A stretch of DNA of 64,000 nucleotides from Streptomyces umbrinus (lineage in GTDB: Bacteria; Actinomycetota; Actinomycetes; Streptomycetales; Streptomycetaceae): NCBI RefSeq assembly GCF_030817415.1, contig NZ_JAUSZI010000002.1, positions 3,596,001-3,660,000 of the forward strand, written 5' to 3'. The stretch's first letter is position 1; each line of letters starts with the position of its first letter. The notes under the pieces are model-generated. The model did not search any database, had not been told where the DNA came from, and was given only the letters and a program-made list of their open reading frames with translations. Both the position numbers and the translations under genes were made by a program. This document shows positions 41,970-47,648 of the stretch, piece after piece.

Positions 41970-42086
41970 TCACTTGACGCAAGCACCGGCAATGGGTTGC
42001 ATACGTTCTGTGATCGTGCACCCCGCTCCACCTGCCTCTCCCGGTAAGACACTCGGCACACCTCTCCGGGCAGGGGGCGCCGCGTC

Positions 42087-43682
42087 GTGGACCCGGTGAT
42101 CATCGTCGGAGCGGGGCCCGTCGGACTCACGCTCGCCCTGGCGCTGGCCCGCCAGGAGGTCCCGTCCATCGTTCTGGACGAGGGTCCCGGCAAGGACGAA
42201 CAGAGGCTCGCGCGGACCGTCGTACTGCGTGAGGACACCACCGCGCTGATCGAGCGGCTGACAGGGTTCCCCCTGGCCGAGGCCGGTTTCCGTTGGGCCG
42301 GATGGCGGTCGATGCGGCGCAAGCAGGTGATGCGGCAGATCGCGTTCGGCGACGACGAGCCCGCACCGCTGCACGTCCCCCAGCACGTACTGACCGCCGC
42401 GCTCAGGGCCGCGATCGCGACCGAGCGCCTGGTCAAGGTCGCCGTGGACAGCCGCCTCGACTCGATCGAGCAGGAGACCTCGGGCGTCACGGCGCACACC
42501 CGCGAGCCCAAGGGCACCTGGTGGCGCGGCAGCTATCTGATCGGCTGCGACGGACCGCGATCGACGGTGCGCAAGCTCCAGGACATCCGCTTCCCGGGAC
42601 GTACCGCCGTCGAGCGGCACGCCGTCGCCGCGCTGCGTACGGAACTTCCGTGGCCCGGTGAGGCGTTGTTGCACCGGATGCCGCCGTGGCGGACATCGGG
42701 CCCCTCGGCCGGGGAGGTGACCGCACGTCCGCTCGCCGACGACGTGTGGCGTCTGGACTGGCTGCTGCCGCCGGGCAAGGACCTGGTCACACCGGACCTG
42801 CTGGTGGCCCGCGTCCGCGAGACCCTCGCGGGCTGGAGCGGGGGCACCACACCCCCGTACGAGCTGCTGGACACCGGAGTCCACACGGTGCATCACCGGC
42901 TGGCGCGCCGGTGGCGGGCCGGCCGTGTCTTCCTGGCCGGGGACGCCGCGCATCTGCTCGGTGCGCTCGGTACGCAGGGTCTCGACGACGGCCTGCGGGA
43001 CGCCGACAACCTCGCGTGGAAGCTGTCCCTCGCCTGGCACCACGGCCCGCACGAGGCGCTGCTCGACAGTTACCAGGTGGAGCGGCGCGCGGTCGTCGCC
43101 GCCCGCCTGCGTGCCGCGGACCAGGCGCTGCCGATACTGCGTGCCGGAGGCCTGCGCTCCGCGGTGCCCGGGTCGGCCCGCGGCCATGACTCGCTGCTCA
43201 CCGACGGTCATCTGGGGCGCGGCCAGCTGGGCGCGCCGGGAGCGTACGCCGATTCGCCTCTCGCGCCTCCACGCGCCGAGTCGTCGGCCGAGGTCGGCAC
43301 GGAGGTGGGCGATCAGGTCGCCGATGTACGGGTGACTGCGGAGGACGGTTCCTTCGTACGGCTGCGGGACAGGCTGGGCCACGGGGCGCTGCTGGTCCTG
43401 CTGATCGCGCCGGGGACCGGGGTGTGGGAGCGCAAGCACTGGGTGACTGCCGGGATCATGCCGCGTCTCGCGGCCGCCGTGACCGCGCTGCCGCACCACG
43501 CCGAGCTGCTGGTCGCCGAGAGCTATCCGGGTGCGGCGGCGCACACGGTGCTGCTGATCCGCCCGGACGGGCACCTGGTCACAGCGCTCAGCGGGGTGCG
43601 CCCGGCGGATCTGTACGAGGCGGCGGAGGCGGCTCTGGGCGGCCCCCGGGCCACGGCGGAGGCCGCGGCGGGGACGTCCTGA
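42087..43682 (+). CDS. FAD-dependent aromatic-hydroxylase-type monooxygenase
   Basis: A 531-residue flavoprotein monooxygenase of the PHBH/UbiH class. The Rossmann motif GAGPVGLTLALALAR starts at residue 8, the DG motif is YLIGCDGPRSTVRKL (150-165), and the GD motif is VFLAGDAAHLLGALGTQGLDDGL. The C-terminal domain is thioredoxin-like (DRLGHGALLVLLIAPGT). The enzyme uses NAD(P)H and O2 to hydroxylate an aromatic or polyketide-like substrate, but no biosynthetic partners are nearby. GTG 42087 is preceded by CAGGGGGCG at a long spacing. It has its own promoter region after the glu terminator. Confidence 0.88.
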   Translation: MDPVIIVGAGPVGLTLALALARQEVPSIVLDEGPGKDEQRLARTVVLREDTTALIERLTGFPLAEAGFRWAGWRSMRRKQVMRQIAFGDDEPAPLHVPQHVLTAALRAAIATERLVKVAVDSRLDSIEQETSGVTAHTREPKGTWWRGSYLIGCDGPRSTVRKLQDIRFPGRTAVERHAVAALRTELPWPGEALLHRMPPWRTSGPSAGEVTARPLADDVWRLDWLLPPGKDLVTPDLLVARVRETLAGWSGGTTPPYELLDTGVHTVHHRLARRWRAGRVFLAGDAAHLLGALGTQGLDDGLRDADNLAWKLSLAWHHGPHEALLDSYQVERRAVVAARLRAADQALPILRAGGLRSAVPGSARGHDSLLTDGHLGRGQLGAPGAYADSPLAPPRAESSAEVGTEVGDQVADVRVTAEDGSFVRLRDRLGHGALLVLLIAPGTGVWERKHWVTAGIMPRLAAAVTALPHHAELLVAESYPGAAAHTVLLIRPDGHLVTALSGVRPADLYEAAEAALGGPRATAEAAAGTS

Positions 43683-43747
43683 GCGCGCTCTGTCCAGTCG
43701 GTGACACTGAGTTGACCGGTCCGGACCGTCATGGTGTACTCCGGATC

Positions 43748-43834
43748 GTGACCGACACCTGTGTGCGCCTGTGGCGGAGGGTCCATATGGACCTCGTCCG
43801 CTATGCGGGCTGCGTGTGTCGCCCGTCCTGCTGA
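43748..43834 (+). CDS. Cys-rich leader peptide upstream of cysteine dioxygenase gene
   Basis: A 28-codon open frame from GTG 43748 ends at TGA 43832-43834, 79 nt before the cysteine dioxygenase start. It has four Cys codons (positions 5, 22, 24 and 28; last part YAGCVCRPSC) and the HMDLVRYAG core. Actinobacterial leader peptides of the R-x-H-[VM]-D-L-x-R type with C-terminal Cys codons precede sulfur-metabolism genes and sense cysteinyl-tRNA supply. The leader should stall when cysteine is scarce, changing expression of the oxidising enzyme downstream. A weak ribosome site and the small size limit certainty. Confidence 0.72.
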   Translation: MTDTCVRLWRRVHMDLVRYAGCVCRPSC

Positions 43835-43913
43835 ATTCGCACCCTCTCCACCCGCGCGCGTCGCCGACGTCGTTCCCGCGCGCCCCACGCGAACGCTGAC
43901 CAGGACGGTACCC

Positions 43914-44459
43914 GTGTCTGTCTCCCCTTCCTTGACCTCCTCTGCCTCCGCCGCCGCTCCGGCCCACGGCCCCACGCAGGCCGAGCTGCTCGACTTCGTC
44001 CGGCGCACGGCCGCCGACGCCGAGCTGATCGCCTCTCTCCCGCTCGACCCCGAGGGCCGTACGTGGGTACGCCTCGAAGGGCCCGGCGGCAGCGAGGCCT
44101 GGCTCATCGGCTGGCCGCCCGGCACGGGCACCGGCTGGCACGACCACGCCGAGTCGGTCGGCGCCTTCCTCACGGCGTCGGGCGAGCTCAAGGAGAACTC
44201 GCTCACCGCCCGGCTGCCCACCGACGGCTGGAAGACCCTCGAACTGACCGAGGGCATCGACCGGGAACGGCGCCTGGGGGCCGGAAAGGGCCGTTCCTTC
44301 GGCCGCCACCATGTGCACGAGGTGCTCAACGAGTCCACGGAGGAGCACGCGATCTCCGTCCACGCCTACTACCCGCCGCTGCCGCAGATCCGCCGCTACA
44401 GCCGCAGCGGCCAGATCCTGCGCCTTGAGCAGGTCGAGCGCCCGGCGGACTGGCAGTGA
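43914..44459 (+). CDS. Cysteine dioxygenase-type cupin protein
   Basis: A 181-residue cupin of the cysteine dioxygenase family from GTG 43914 (AGGA about eight nt upstream). The iron-binding residues are His76 and His78 in GWHDHAESVGAF and a later His in GRHHVHEVLN (133-135). It should oxidise L-cysteine (or a related thiol) with O2 to the sulfinate. GTGA overlap couples it to the rhodanese gene. The Cys-rich leader 79 nt upstream suggests regulation by cysteine supply. A bacterial thiol dioxygenase with another thiol substrate remains possible. Confidence 0.88.
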   Translation: MSVSPSLTSSASAAAPAHGPTQAELLDFVRRTAADAELIASLPLDPEGRTWVRLEGPGGSEAWLIGWPPGTGTGWHDHAESVGAFLTASGELKENSLTARLPTDGWKTLELTEGIDRERRLGAGKGRSFGRHHVHEVLNESTEEHAISVHAYYPPLPQIRRYSRSGQILRLEQVERPADWQ

Positions 44460-44920
44460 CCGCCGAAGGCCGCCTGCGAGCCGAAGGCCCGGTCGGGATC
44501 GACGAGTTGCTGGAGCGGGTCCGTGAGGGCCTCGACCGGGTCGAGGCCGACACCGCCCACGACGCCGCGCGGGCGGGCGAGGCCCTGCTGGTCGACATCC
44601 GGTACGCGGCACTGCGCGAGCGCGACGGGCTGATCCCCGGCGCCCTCGTCGTCGAGCGCAACGAACTGGAATGGCGCCTCGACCCCCAGGGCAGCCATCG
44701 CGCTCCGGAAGCCACGAGCCACGCCCTGCGCGTCGTGATCGTCTGCAACGAGGGCTACGCGTCGAGTCTCGCGGCCGCGTCCCTGCGCCAGTTGGGACTG
44801 CACCGGGCGACAGACCTGGTGGGCGGCTTCCAGGCTTGGCGCGCGGCAGGCCTGCCGGTGACTGAGCTGCCGGTGGATGGGCTGCCGGTGACTGCAGCGC
44901 TGGTGACCGGGCGACGGTAG
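44456..44920 (+). CDS. Rhodanese-domain sulfurtransferase
   Basis: A 154-residue protein whose GTG overlaps the cysteine dioxygenase stop (GTGA). The rhodanese fold has LLVDIRYAALRERDGLIPGA and the active-site loop VCNEGYASS, with catalytic Cys97; NEGYAS differs from the CRxGxR loop typical of thiosulfate rhodanese, suggesting another sulfur acceptor. The C-terminus includes the imperfect repeat LPVTELPVDGLPVTA. It probably handles sulfane sulfur released when cysteine is oxidised. Confidence 0.87.
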   Translation: MTAEGRLRAEGPVGIDELLERVREGLDRVEADTAHDAARAGEALLVDIRYAALRERDGLIPGALVVERNELEWRLDPQGSHRAPEATSHALRVVIVCNEGYASSLAAASLRQLGLHRATDLVGGFQAWRAAGLPVTELPVDGLPVTAALVTGRR

Positions 44921-44984
44921 CCAGCCTGCCGGTGGCTTCTCAGACCTCCGGTCGGACAGCCTGATCCGGGCGCGGGCCTCTTCC

Positions 44985-47648
44985 TCAGCTGTCAGTCACA
45001 AAGCCTCCCCTGCGCGCGTACTCCAGCGCCTCGTTGGGCATATGTAGTGGTGGGGGCCCCTTCGTGTAAGGGGCCCCCACCATTGCGTACCACCCCTTAC
45101 TCCCGGACCACTCAGGCCACTCCCTGGCCGTGGCCACCGTGACCGGCCGCGTCTTGAGGGCCGCCCGGCCCGGCAGCGCGGTGCCGACGAGGGCGAGCAG
45201 TCCGGCGGCGGCGACCACCGTGACGTACACCAGGGGTGTGACGGCAGGAGCCGCGCTGCCCGTCATCCCGATGCTGAAGGCCGTCAGGACGGCGAGCGCG
45301 ATGCCGCTGCCGAGGGTCGTCGCCAGGAGCAGCGCCGACAGTGCCTCGGTCCGCAGCATCCGCAGTACCTGGCGACGCGTGGCACCGGCGAGGCGGAGCA
45401 ACGCGAACTCCCGTACGCGCTCGGAGACCGACATGGCGAGCGTGTTGACGACCGCGATGGCGGTGAAGGCGAGAACGAGCCCCATGGCGAAGTAGTTGAC
45501 CTCGGCGTTCGCCTGCAGCCGCTCGGCCTGCAACGAGTCCGCGGTGGCCGGTGGGATGACCCGGACGCCCGGGAACTTCCGGACGGCGGCCGCGAGTTCT
45601 TCCTGTGAACGGGCGGTGGAGACGAGGACCGTGGCCGCGAGCGGGTTGTCGACGTGGCGGGCGACCAGGTCGTGGGCCATGGTGAGGTCGCCGAAGCCGA
45701 GGCCCTTGGCGTAGACAGCGGCGACGGTGAGGGTGGCGAGCGTACCGTCGCCGAGGGTGAGTTTCAGCGTGCTGCCGGGCTTCAAGTGGAGCTGGTCCGC
45801 GGCCAGTTGGCTGACGGCGACGGTGTCGTGCGTGAGCTCGGCGAGGGAGCCCGCGGTGACGTCGGGGTCCCAGGTGCGGGTCAGGCCGGCGGGGCTGACG
45901 CCCTGTGCCGCGTACTTGTCGAGGCCGACGCGGACGGTCGTCCGGACGACTTCGGTGGCCACATCGCGGTCCGTACGGAGCTGCCGTGCGGCCTGCGCGG
46001 GGACGCCAGGGCCCTCGGCGGTGAGAACCCAGTCGGCGCGGGTGCCCTCGCGGGCTTGGGCGCGGGCGGCGTGTCCCAGGGTCGGCTGGACGAAGAGGAC
46101 GGTGCAGGTCATACCGATGAGGAGGGTGAGCGGGGTGACGACGGAGGCCATGCGGGCGGCGTTGCCCCGCAGATTGGCCGTAGCGAGCCTGCCTCCCGGG
46201 CCACTGAGTCGCAGCGGGGCGCCCAGGACTGCCGCGGCAGCCCTGACCAGGAGCGGGCCGAGCAGGGCGACGGACGAGGCGAGGACGACAATGGCAAGGA
46301 ACGTCACGGGAGTCGACGCCGGCTCAGTGCGCAGGATGCTGAGTACGGCGACGAGGACCGTACCTCCGGCGAGCAGCACGAGCCCCGCGATGATGCGCCC
46401 CCAGGCGGGGCGGTCACGCTCGGCGGCGGCCTCAGCAAGTGCCTCGGCCGGGCGAATACGGGCGATGCGACGCGAGGAGACACGGGCGGCGGCCCAGGCA
46501 CCGATGAGCGTGGCGGCGATGGCGGCGAACAGCGGGAACACACTGACGGTGTGCTGAAGCGTGGCGGGCACGGCGCCCAGGGCGACGAACCTGCCGTGCA
46601 GCCAGCTCCCGAGCGGCAGCCCCGCGAGCGCTCCGGCGACTCCGGCGGCCGCGCCGATCAGCAGGGCTTCGCGGCCGAGGAGCTTGCGGATCTGTCCTGG
46701 TGTGGCGGCGATGGCGCGCAGCAGGGCGAGTTCGCGGTGCCTCTGCTGCACGGAGAGCGCGAAGGTGCCGACGACCACGAGTACGGCGACGAGCAGGGAC
46801 GTGCCGCCCATCGCTCCGCCCATGCTGACGAGCTTGATCCGGGCGGCTGCCGCGTCCAGGGACTCGACGGGACCTCGCTCGTCACCCGTGCTGACCTGCG
46901 CGGTCGTGCCGTGCAGCGCCTTGGCCACGGCTGCTTTGAGGTCGGCGGTGTCGGTGCCCTCGGCCGGGACGACGCCGATGGTCGTGACCTGGCCCGGGTG
47001 CGCGGCGAGGCGCCTGGCTTCGGCGGTGGAGAAGAAGAGCGAGGTCTGGTGGCGTATGTCGTCTCCGGTGGGCGCGGCGATGCCGGTGACCCGATATGTG
47101 CGCGGGCTCTGGGTGGACTGGACGGTGAGGCGGTCCCCCGGCTTCAGTCGGGCTCGGTCGGCGAGATAGCGGTCGACGACCAGATCGTCCCGGGCGCGGG
47201 GAGGGGTTCCGGTGGTGAGGGCGTACGGAGTGAGGGGAGCGGAGTCCCAGGCGTGGCCGTAGGCGGTCCGGCCGCCGGTGCCGGTGGGTATCAACGGCTC
47301 GGCGAGGAAGGTCAGTTCGGGGATGACGCGACGGGCGCCGGGGACTCGGCTGAGCGTCGTGGTGAGGTTCTCGGGCAGCCAGGCCCGTTCGGCGATGGGC
47401 TTGGCCTTGTGTTTGGTCTTCGTCTTGCCCTTCTTGTGCTTGACGGTGGTCCGGTGGACGTTCTGGTCGGCGGAGACCACGACGGGGGCGGCGGCGTAGC
47501 GCTCGGTGCCGATGGTGCCGCGCAATCCGGTTTCGAGGAGGGTGCCGCAGGCCGTGATGAGGGCGGCCGCGCACATCAGGGCGAGAAAGGCACCGAGGAA
47601 TCCGCCCTTCCGGTGGCGGACGGTCCGCAGGGCGTAGCGAAGCATCAT
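44985..47648 (-). CDS. Large FtsX-type ABC permease (MacB-like), two FtsX domains
   Basis: An 887-residue membrane protein whose ATG (47648) overlaps the stop of the winged-helix regulator gene (ATGA). TM1 is at about 15-38 (GGFLGAFLALMCAAALITAC), followed by a long extracytoplasmic region; FtsX permease domains are at about 275-420 (LLVAVLVVVGTFALSVQQRH ... LALLRAIAATPGQIRKLLG) and about 730-860 (NTLAMSVSERVREFALLRLA). It could export a peptide, lipid or antibiotic with an ABC ATPase. No ATPase gene is adjacent, so the partner must be elsewhere. The last 25 residues (after YAMVG) overlap a hairpin and look like an extension. Confidence 0.88.
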   Translation of the reverse strand: MMLRYALRTVRHRKGGFLGAFLALMCAAALITACGTLLETGLRGTIGTERYAAAPVVVSADQNVHRTTVKHKKGKTKTKHKAKPIAERAWLPENLTTTLSRVPGARRVIPELTFLAEPLIPTGTGGRTAYGHAWDSAPLTPYALTTGTPPRARDDLVVDRYLADRARLKPGDRLTVQSTQSPRTYRVTGIAAPTGDDIRHQTSLFFSTAEARRLAAHPGQVTTIGVVPAEGTDTADLKAAVAKALHGTTAQVSTGDERGPVESLDAAAARIKLVSMGGAMGGTSLLVAVLVVVGTFALSVQQRHRELALLRAIAATPGQIRKLLGREALLIGAAAGVAGALAGLPLGSWLHGRFVALGAVPATLQHTVSVFPLFAAIAATLIGAWAAARVSSRRIARIRPAEALAEAAAERDRPAWGRIIAGLVLLAGGTVLVAVLSILRTEPASTPVTFLAIVVLASSVALLGPLLVRAAAAVLGAPLRLSGPGGRLATANLRGNAARMASVVTPLTLLIGMTCTVLFVQPTLGHAARAQAREGTRADWVLTAEGPGVPAQAARQLRTDRDVATEVVRTTVRVGLDKYAAQGVSPAGLTRTWDPDVTAGSLAELTHDTVAVSQLAADQLHLKPGSTLKLTLGDGTLATLTVAAVYAKGLGFGDLTMAHDLVARHVDNPLAATVLVSTARSQEELAAAVRKFPGVRVIPPATADSLQAERLQANAEVNYFAMGLVLAFTAIAVVNTLAMSVSERVREFALLRLAGATRRQVLRMLRTEALSALLLATTLGSGIALAVLTAFSIGMTGSAAPAVTPLVYVTVVAAAGLLALVGTALPGRAALKTRPVTVATAREWPEWSGSKGWYAMVGAPYTKGPPPLHMPNEALEYARRGGFVTDS
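45048..45082. terminator. Perfect 15-bp hairpin inside the permease 3' end
   Basis: TGGTGGGGGCCCCTT and its exact complement flank a CGTGT loop, 63 nt inside the annotated stop of the permease gene. It has the strength of a terminator but lies in coding sequence. It may be a terminator of the leftward permease transcript reached after an ancestral stop was lost, or one for the rightward rhodanese transcript. Confidence 0.7.

Follow-up and report, generated by a model that had tools for sequence, protein, structure and literature searches.

The window, the whole stretch of 64,000 nucleotides of Streptomyces umbrinus DNA that was analysed, contains a small cysteine-rich reading frame followed by genes for a cysteine dioxygenase (CDO) and a rhodanese-like sulfurtransferase (Table 1). 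The GTG start codon of the rhodanese gene overlaps the CDO stop codon (GTGA), so the rhodanese is probably translationally coupled to CDO. A rhodanese match lies downstream in 124 of the 126 orthologues, and the CDO stop codon reads [AGT]TGA in 123 of these 124, with the rhodanese frame itself checked in the window only. The gene order in the window is ABC-transporter-like genes (recognised by eye), an FAD monooxygenase gene and CDO. The SCO5772 region of S. coelicolor presumably has the same order, so the CDO of the window is probably the orthologue of SCO5772. The solved protein chain closest to CDO is 8qfl (51 bits), which is labelled a cysteine dioxygenase and may be an ergothioneine-degrading enzyme; chains of cysteine dioxygenase "type 1" reach at most 27 bits. 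The activity of the window protein on cysteine is a prediction from its family. Cysteine codons in the CDO coding sequences number six in total over the 126 orthologues.

Table 1. Features of the leader-CDO-rhodanese locus, in positions of the window.
Feature	Position	Strand	Evidence or remark
-35-like element TTGACC of the leader promoter	43712..43717	+	orthologue geometry
-10-like element TGTACT, 7 nt before the leader GTG	43735..43740	+	orthologue geometry
Leader peptide frame VTDTCVRLWRRVHMDLVRYAGCVCRPSC, then stop	43748..43834	+	NF042934 match; leader in 127/130 loci
Hairpin inside the leader (LWRRV codons against DLVRYAG codons)	43768..43808	+	RNAalifold
Cys codon C14, TGC, at H+9; predicted OFF stall site	43811..43813	+	Cys in 126/127
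Cys codon C16, TGT, at H+11; predicted ON stall site	43817..43819	+	TGT in 127/127
Anti-SD CCGTCCTG, codons Pro-Ser-Cys (18-20)	43823..43830	+	reverse complement of the CDO SD region
TTCGC box after the leader stop	43836..43840	+	pairs with GCGAA
GCGAA box before the SD	43889..43893	+	partner of TTCGC
CDO SD region CAGGACGG	43901..43908	+	complementary to the last leader codons
Cysteine dioxygenase (CDO)	43914..44459	+	PF05995, 167 bits
Rhodanese-like sulfurtransferase	44456..44920	+	PF00581, 48 bits

The leader frame and its distribution

An earlier note on this DNA described a 28-codon frame with four cysteine codons and the ending CVCRPSC, placed it 79 nt before CDO and assigned it to a known kind of cysteine leader. 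Translation of 43748-43834 reproduces the codons and the ending, the distance to the CDO GTG is indeed 79 nt, and the frame scores 37.1 bits (cut-off 27) on NCBIfam NF042934 (cis_reg_atten), a model of putative leader peptides of actinobacteria. The whole-genome scan gives the CDO leader 35.5 bits on this model, one of 11 matches over the cut-off in its own genome. A search of positions 42000-46000 found no relevant Rfam family; a microRNA match elsewhere (E 0.68) falls far below the gathering score. Codons are numbered here from the Leu before the Trp, which is codon 0; the conserved cysteines are C14, C16 and C20, and the stop is 21.

Within the genus, 131 of 150 genomes have CDO, and 130 of these loci were fetched; G129, with its CDO at the edge of a contig, was left out. 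The leader is present upstream of CDO in 127 of the 130 loci. It is missing from L172, from L174 and from L138, which is at a contig edge. When the leader core was searched for as a pattern with up to three mismatches, it appeared in 0 of 19 genomes that lack this CDO and in all five positive controls. The core lies at contig ends on other contigs for G129 and for G085, the genome of L138; the pattern search did not find it in G144, the genome of L174, which has a divergent CDO. The genome of L172 (G012) carries an orphan leader after an FAD-monooxygenase-like frame (L259; G012:C1:7304900-7308000). This orphan keeps the CAGGACGG element with no CDO beside it; the CDO match of the same genome, some 1.1 Mb away, has no leader. 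An exact-pattern scan of named genomes returned at least 120 stretches; the matches listed are nearly all from Streptomyces, and the motif [CG][AG]GGACGG occurs within 160 nt in 77 of 80 of the matches listed. Loci L237-L251 stand outside all counts. The genome of the window also carries a divergent pair of leader-type frames, separated by about 600 bp (L020 and L029; G000:C2:1848813 on the minus and 1849434 on the plus strand). The frame of L029 has no cysteine (SSAY, stop at H+11), yet it can form a 7-nt leader:SD helix.

Promoter geometry and the predicted leaderless start

The leader is preceded by a promoter-like pair that consists of a TTGA-type hexamer, a spacer of 17-18 nt and T(G/T/C)(T/C/G)ACT in 125 of 126 orthologues, and this pair ends 6-7 nt before the leader start codon, likewise in 125 of 126. 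At such a distance the mRNA is probably leaderless, with its 5' end predicted from sequence to lie at or adjoining the start codon. None of the 126 orthologues has GGAG, GAGG, AGGA or AAGG between -16 and -4 relative to the leader start codon. A generic sigma-70 scan, which demands A at position 2 of the -10 element, returned 0 sites at the leader promoter. Conservation together with the fixed promoter geometry rules out a chance open reading frame. An internal start at codon 43787, which follows a GGAGG, was also considered; this codon is ATG in 108, CTG or CTC in 14 and GTG in 5 of the 127 leaders, and is therefore not the general start.

Leaderless transcripts are described for seven of the eight amino-acid leader peptides reported in S. 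lividans, none of the eight being for cysteine (PMC8079986). The metL leader of that study (MSTTSDRTPATEATTTPGARCMCRRMCAF) lies upstream of metNIQ, contains three cysteine codons and is reported there as methionine-dependent; it might be a cysteine leader instead.

RNA elements between the leader and the dioxygenase gene

The final codons of the leader, CCG TCC TG, match the reverse complement of CAGGACGG, the Shine-Dalgarno (SD) region of CDO; in 126 orthologues this region lies 4-10 nt upstream of the CDO start codon. One further locus, L071, was dropped from the SD counts since it has no match to the SD pattern. Among the 126, the SD region reads CAGGACGG in 120, CAGGAACGG in four and CCGGACGG in two, and none has GGAGG in the 20 nt that precede the CDO start. 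With G-T pairs counted, the helix between anti-SD and SD reaches eight or more contiguous pairs in 94 of 126 orthologues and five or more in 124, and it is part of the minimum free energy (MFE) fold of 113 of 122 orthologues and of the window. A G-C pair is missing at anti-SD position 3 in 16 of 126, and the pair at position 7 in nine. As the SD is near-invariant inside the genus, covariation there is thin; a two-sided change is seen in three loci from related genera (L216, L220 and L229), with anti-SD CCGTCCCG and SD GGGACGG.

The region between the leader stop and the SD contains a variable hairpin that aligns badly with MAFFT, and was studied by folds of single sequences and block-wise counts. 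The TTCGC box after the stop and the GCGAA box before the SD are paired in the MFE fold of the window. The corresponding helix has at least five pairs in 82 of 126 orthologues and at least four in 121, a four-pair match alone being weak evidence. One orthologue (L088 in G013) has a run of roughly 30 or more C in the variable hairpin region between leader and SD, which is either a repeat expansion or an assembly artefact.

A second hairpin, inside the leader, ends just before the C14 codon. RNAalifold keeps 13 of its 15 pairs in at least 90 of 92 distinct ungapped sequences, and its covariation term is about zero because the columns hardly vary. Three codons of this hairpin (4, 12 and 13) vary less in their third base than any of the 36 conserved four-fold codons of CDO compared in the same species. 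Against the same reference, codon 15 ranks behind four of the 36 and codon 18, in the anti-SD, behind seven, so the anti-SD is not exceptional by third-base fixation. Ser19 is TCC in 122 of 124 leaders. The RNA as a whole has a folding z-score of only -1.8, and 12 of 200 shuffles fold equally well. In the MFE fold of the window, the 5' end of the leader, GACCGACAC (43750-43758), pairs with the CDO start, GTGTCTGTC (43914-43922); the same pairing was seen by eye in L047, L048, L062 and L091 among ten folds, and is possibly a second lock on the start codon.

Between 43650 and 43960 no intrinsic terminator was found, and a run of four T before the SD occurs in one of 126 orthologues. This distinguishes the CDO leader from trp-type transcription attenuators.

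Conservation of the cysteine codons

The earlier note counted four cysteine codons in this one sequence; across orthologues, C16 is present in 127 of 127 leaders, C14 in 126, C20 in 114 and the N-terminal cysteine in 42. Two of the four codons are thus essentially invariant, one is common and one occurs in a third of the leaders. For comparison between leaders, positions are counted from the His of HxDLxR, which places C14 at H+9 and C16 at H+11; a cysteine codon at H+11 is a regularity seen here and not a published definition. The comparison sets are leaders of nirA (sulfite reductase), leaders of sfnG (dimethylsulfone monooxygenase), CDO leaders from other genera, and 12 non-CDO leaders from the genome of the window, ten of them over the NF042934 cut-off and two below it (L030 and L031). 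The L279 match was left out of the sfnG codon counts because it is in the wrong frame.

TGT occupies H+11 in 126 of 126 CDO leaders of the genus counted in this register, in 30 of 30 nirA, 23 of 23 sfnG and 22 of 22 other-genera CDO leaders, and in 11 of the 12 non-CDO leaders, the twelfth having its stop there. The background usage in 11 window genes is 18 TGC to 5 TGT. The base after the H+11 TGT of CDO leaders is C in 122 of 126. That UGU stands at H+11 in almost all leaders examined gives a testable clue to how Cys-tRNA is sensed. At H+9, a cysteine is found in 18 of 25 CDO leaders from other genera, beside its near-invariance within the genus, and in none of the 12 own-genome non-CDO, 30 nirA and 23 sfnG leaders. 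The H+9 cysteine is therefore confined to CDO leaders among those examined, and the CDO leader reads as a standard leader with an added upstream cysteine.

Modelled ribosome positions

The effect of a ribosome on the leader was simulated by blocking a footprint around the P-site codon (13 nt before and 15 nt after its first base) and computing the cost of opening the SD (in kcal/mol) in the 119 of 126 orthologues with a stop-to-SD distance of at most 100 nt. The median cost is 8.1 without a ribosome and 8.3 with C14 in the A site, and falls to 4.3 at codon 15, 3.1 at C16 and 2.35 at the stop. Early codons are also closed, with 8.6 at codon 0. The cost is higher at C14 than at C16 in 112 of the 119 orthologues, and by more than 2 in 101. 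When only the RNA downstream of the ribosome is folded, the medians are 10.5 at C14 and 3.3 at C16, and the drop exceeds 2 in 108 of 119.

The dependence on footprint was computed for 40 orthologues, every third of the 119. The C14 cost is 6.1-8.3 for downstream footprints of +11 to +16, then 5.1 at +17 and 4.0 at +18; the C16 cost is 3.3-3.7 from +14 up and 4.5-6.3, or partly open, at +11 to +13. In these models, the SD would thus be hidden with C14 in the A site and freed with C16, in a footprint-dependent manner. The step in the window's own sequence is smaller than the median, with 5.7 without a ribosome, 4.65 at C14, 1.29 at C16 and 1.05 at the stop, and the SD is open there with codon 10, 12 or 13 in the A site as well (1.35-1.47). 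Synonymous shuffling of the leader in 29 orthologues lowers the C14 cost from 7.7 to 4.5, and the difference between C14 and stop exceeds 2 in 229 of 580 shuffled leaders against 24 of 29 native ones. Shuffled leaders still hide the SD in part, so codon choice strengthens the effect and does not solely create it.

The output under limitation was explored with a kinetic exclusion model with equal dwell at the cysteine codons and initiation at 0.1 per s; since the rates are assumed, only the shape of the result counts. The masked fraction, which stands for CDO on, starts at 0.09 with normal dwell, reaches 0.60 with a dwell of 10 s and is down to 0.06 with one of 3000 s. With C14 alone it falls from 0.09 to 0.00, and with C16 alone it rises from 0.09 to 0.94. 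Among the native and four other codon sets modelled, a monotonic fall appears with C14 alone only. Equal-dwell kinetics would therefore give a band-pass, not a simple inversion.

Comparison with other leaders

Attenuators of the trp, erm and cat types use the position of a ribosome on a leader to choose between RNA structures. Conserved complementarity to the SD, which defines an SD-sequestering translation attenuator together with an effect of ribosome position, is found at the CDO leader, as is that effect, the latter by computation only. The CDO leader differs from erm- and cat-type translation attenuators in signal and geometry. It shares with the NF042934 family an HxDLxR-type core and a cysteine near the C-terminus, and differs by the added cysteine at H+9, by a third cysteine codon inside the anti-SD and by its target, a cysteine-oxidising enzyme. 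Two mycobacterial polycysteine leaderless sORF attenuators, Ms5788A and Ms4527A, were reportedly described by Canestrari et al. in 2020. As described in citing papers, they share with the CDO leader a leaderless start (predicted in the latter), cysteine codons near the end and a place before the operon that is controlled. A difference is that the CDO leader reaches only 17.9 bits on the profile of the Ms5788A cysteine-rich leader (NF042933), below its cut-off of 45. PMC13236596 describes the mycobacterial genes regulated by such leaders as cysteine biosynthetic genes, and also describes the masking and unmasking of an SD through a stall in an upstream frame.

The sfnG leader of the same genome (L025/L273) belongs to the same family (33.6 bits) and also has an 8-nt complementarity between anti-SD and SD (CCTGTTGC/GCAACAGG). 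Its cysteine codons lie inside the anti-SD, unlike those of the CDO leaders, in which the anti-SD starts 12 nt after the first base of C14, approximately at the leading edge of the ribosome. This placement provides an anatomical basis for the unusual wiring that the earlier note had suspected, as a C14 stall leaves the SD hidden in the folding models. The sfnG gene occurs in 24 of 101 genomes, and seven of the 24 loci have the SD pattern. In all seven, the SD opening cost with the first cysteine codon in the A site is below the cost without a ribosome, as in L287, where it falls from 10.1 to 3.6. It is high again at the stop in L273, L274 and L287. The contrast with CDO is not clean, since in several sfnG loci the cost drops before the cysteine and in four of seven it is reduced at the stop. 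The nirA leader was considered as a further comparison; its best leader:SD helix has six pairs (own-genome copy, true start) and its gap measures 112-227 nt in 30 loci, and for these reasons it was not used in the ribosome simulation.

CDO loci were also examined in other genera of the family, 31 in all (L215-L236 and L261-L269). A leader-type frame was recognised by pattern in 22 of them and by eye in four more (L219, L231, L232 and L236). The leaders of genus g7 (GCVCTAAR and relatives) keep C14 and C16; their CDO is mostly preceded by a GGGTGG-like site, and inspection by eye showed nothing at the end of the leader that matches it. L223, L230 and L235 have CCGTCCTGC after the stop and one cysteine only. 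The step from C14 to C16 appears in four of six simulated other-genus loci of the RPSC or RPSR type and fails in L218 and L229; a seventh locus, L217, has no pattern match, and six of seven were thus tested. Outside the family, one of the seven distant CDO loci examined (L257) has a leader-type frame. Hiding of the SD in the form seen at the CDO leader therefore appears to be a property of Streptomyces and near relatives, and the cysteine pair is wider.

Proposed mechanism and alternatives

Known cysteine leaders are regarded as starvation-on switches for sulfur assimilation. For the CDO leader, conservation, promoter geometry, complementarity and the position of the step were computed, and they are best read as a cysteine-codon translation attenuator that hides the ribosome-binding site of CDO, with C14 as an added gate; we put the probability of this reading at about 0.5. 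As the last leader codons can hide that site, the progress of a ribosome through the cysteine codons probably decides whether CDO is made. Transcription would start at the leader GTG, where a 70S ribosome would begin. If no ribosome occupied the end of the frame, codons 18-20 (CCGTCCTG) would pair with CAGGACGG and CDO would stay untranslated. A ribosome waiting at C14 would halt just short of the anti-SD and leave CDO off. Once past C14, waiting at C16, C20 or the stop, it would cover the anti-SD; CDO translation could then start, and that of the overlapping rhodanese would follow. C16 would be the usual cysteine position of the family, at which a stall induces, and C14 the added gate that closes the operon when scarce Cys-tRNA keeps ribosomes from passing. 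The operon would then be off in severe starvation, unlike one under a leader with C16 only, and on whenever ribosomes get through, possibly with the highest CDO expression at moderate cysteine limitation.

A sharper form of this attenuator, in which a stall at the H+11 UGU turns the operon on and a stall at the H+9 cysteine keeps it off, so that two codons form a band-pass, follows the shape of the kinetic result and is put forward tentatively.

Published mRNA levels give hints in both directions. SCO5772 is named a putative cysteine dioxygenase in PMC3087709, and its mRNA rises 8-fold under oxidative stress in S. coelicolor beside cysteine-biosynthesis genes, according to PMC4991794. In feather-grown Streptomyces SCUT-3, cdo1 mRNA is up 50.2-fold and cdo2 mRNA 8.3-fold (PMC7181669). 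These levels isolate neither translation nor the leader, and the leader-bearing cdo could be either of the two. A search of the open-access literature, outside which most subscription papers lie, returned no report of a leader of a Streptomyces cysteine dioxygenase among the matches listed.

The earlier note had proposed an inverted logic, with high expression only when cysteine is abundant. Stated simply, only C14 would matter, low Cys-tRNA would mean off and ample cysteine on, and C16 would be a relic. The near-invariant C14 is the last modelled position that leaves the SD hidden, the additional N-terminal cysteine of 42 leaders falls where early positions are closed too, and the rise of the cdo mRNAs in feather medium would agree with such a logic, as keratin could supply cysteine (PMC7181669). 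That a relic should be TGT in every leader is odd, however, a monotonic fall in the kinetic model appears only if C14 acts alone, and SCO5772 is induced by oxidative stress together with cysteine-biosynthesis genes (PMC4991794); we regard this version as unlikely. Part of the earlier proposal is retained, since the models predict that severe starvation shuts CDO off, an outcome common to the C14 gate and to inverted logic. Its restriction to abundant cysteine is weakened, as a modelled C16 stall frees the SD and moderate limitation may raise CDO.

The reverse view treats the leader as an ordinary starvation-on attenuator, in which a C16 stall, aided by the HxDLxR nascent chain, covers the anti-SD and C14 is incidental. 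It would account for the release of the SD by a C16 stall, for the sharing of the H+11 TGT with other leaders, for the induction from 0.09 to 0.94 with C16 alone and for the joint rise of SCO5772 and cys genes in one published condition (PMC4991794). It leaves unexplained why the H+9 cysteine is near-invariant in CDO leaders of the genus and absent from 65 non-CDO leaders, and why a third of the leaders carry an extra N-terminal cysteine, and the oxidation of scarce cysteine would make little metabolic sense. We consider it doubtful, to about the same degree as the inverted logic.

Rho-dependent or other transcription attenuation, with the complementarity secondary, is improbable. In its favour, many loci have a pyrimidine-rich stretch (seen by eye) downstream of the stop, CDO mRNA that is not being translated would be exposed to Rho, and PMC1262725 finds no conserved terminator hairpins for mycobacterial cys leaders and marks candidate Rho-binding sites in a figure legend. 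Against it, the complementarity of anti-SD and SD is maintained, with joint changes in three loci from related genera; Rho may nevertheless act in addition. Control of CDO is most likely translational.

Implications

The same kind of leader that serves other sulfur genes guards a member of a cysteine-oxidising enzyme family here, and from its geometry the outcome at the first conserved cysteine codon is predicted to be the opposite. If the band-pass is true, cysteine would be oxidised from sufficiency to moderate limitation and never in severe starvation. The two cysteine codons would then have opposite outputs, set by where each places the leading edge of the ribosome relative to an 8-nt anti-SD. 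The codons of the leader would encode the sign of the response, which is directly testable by single-codon changes.
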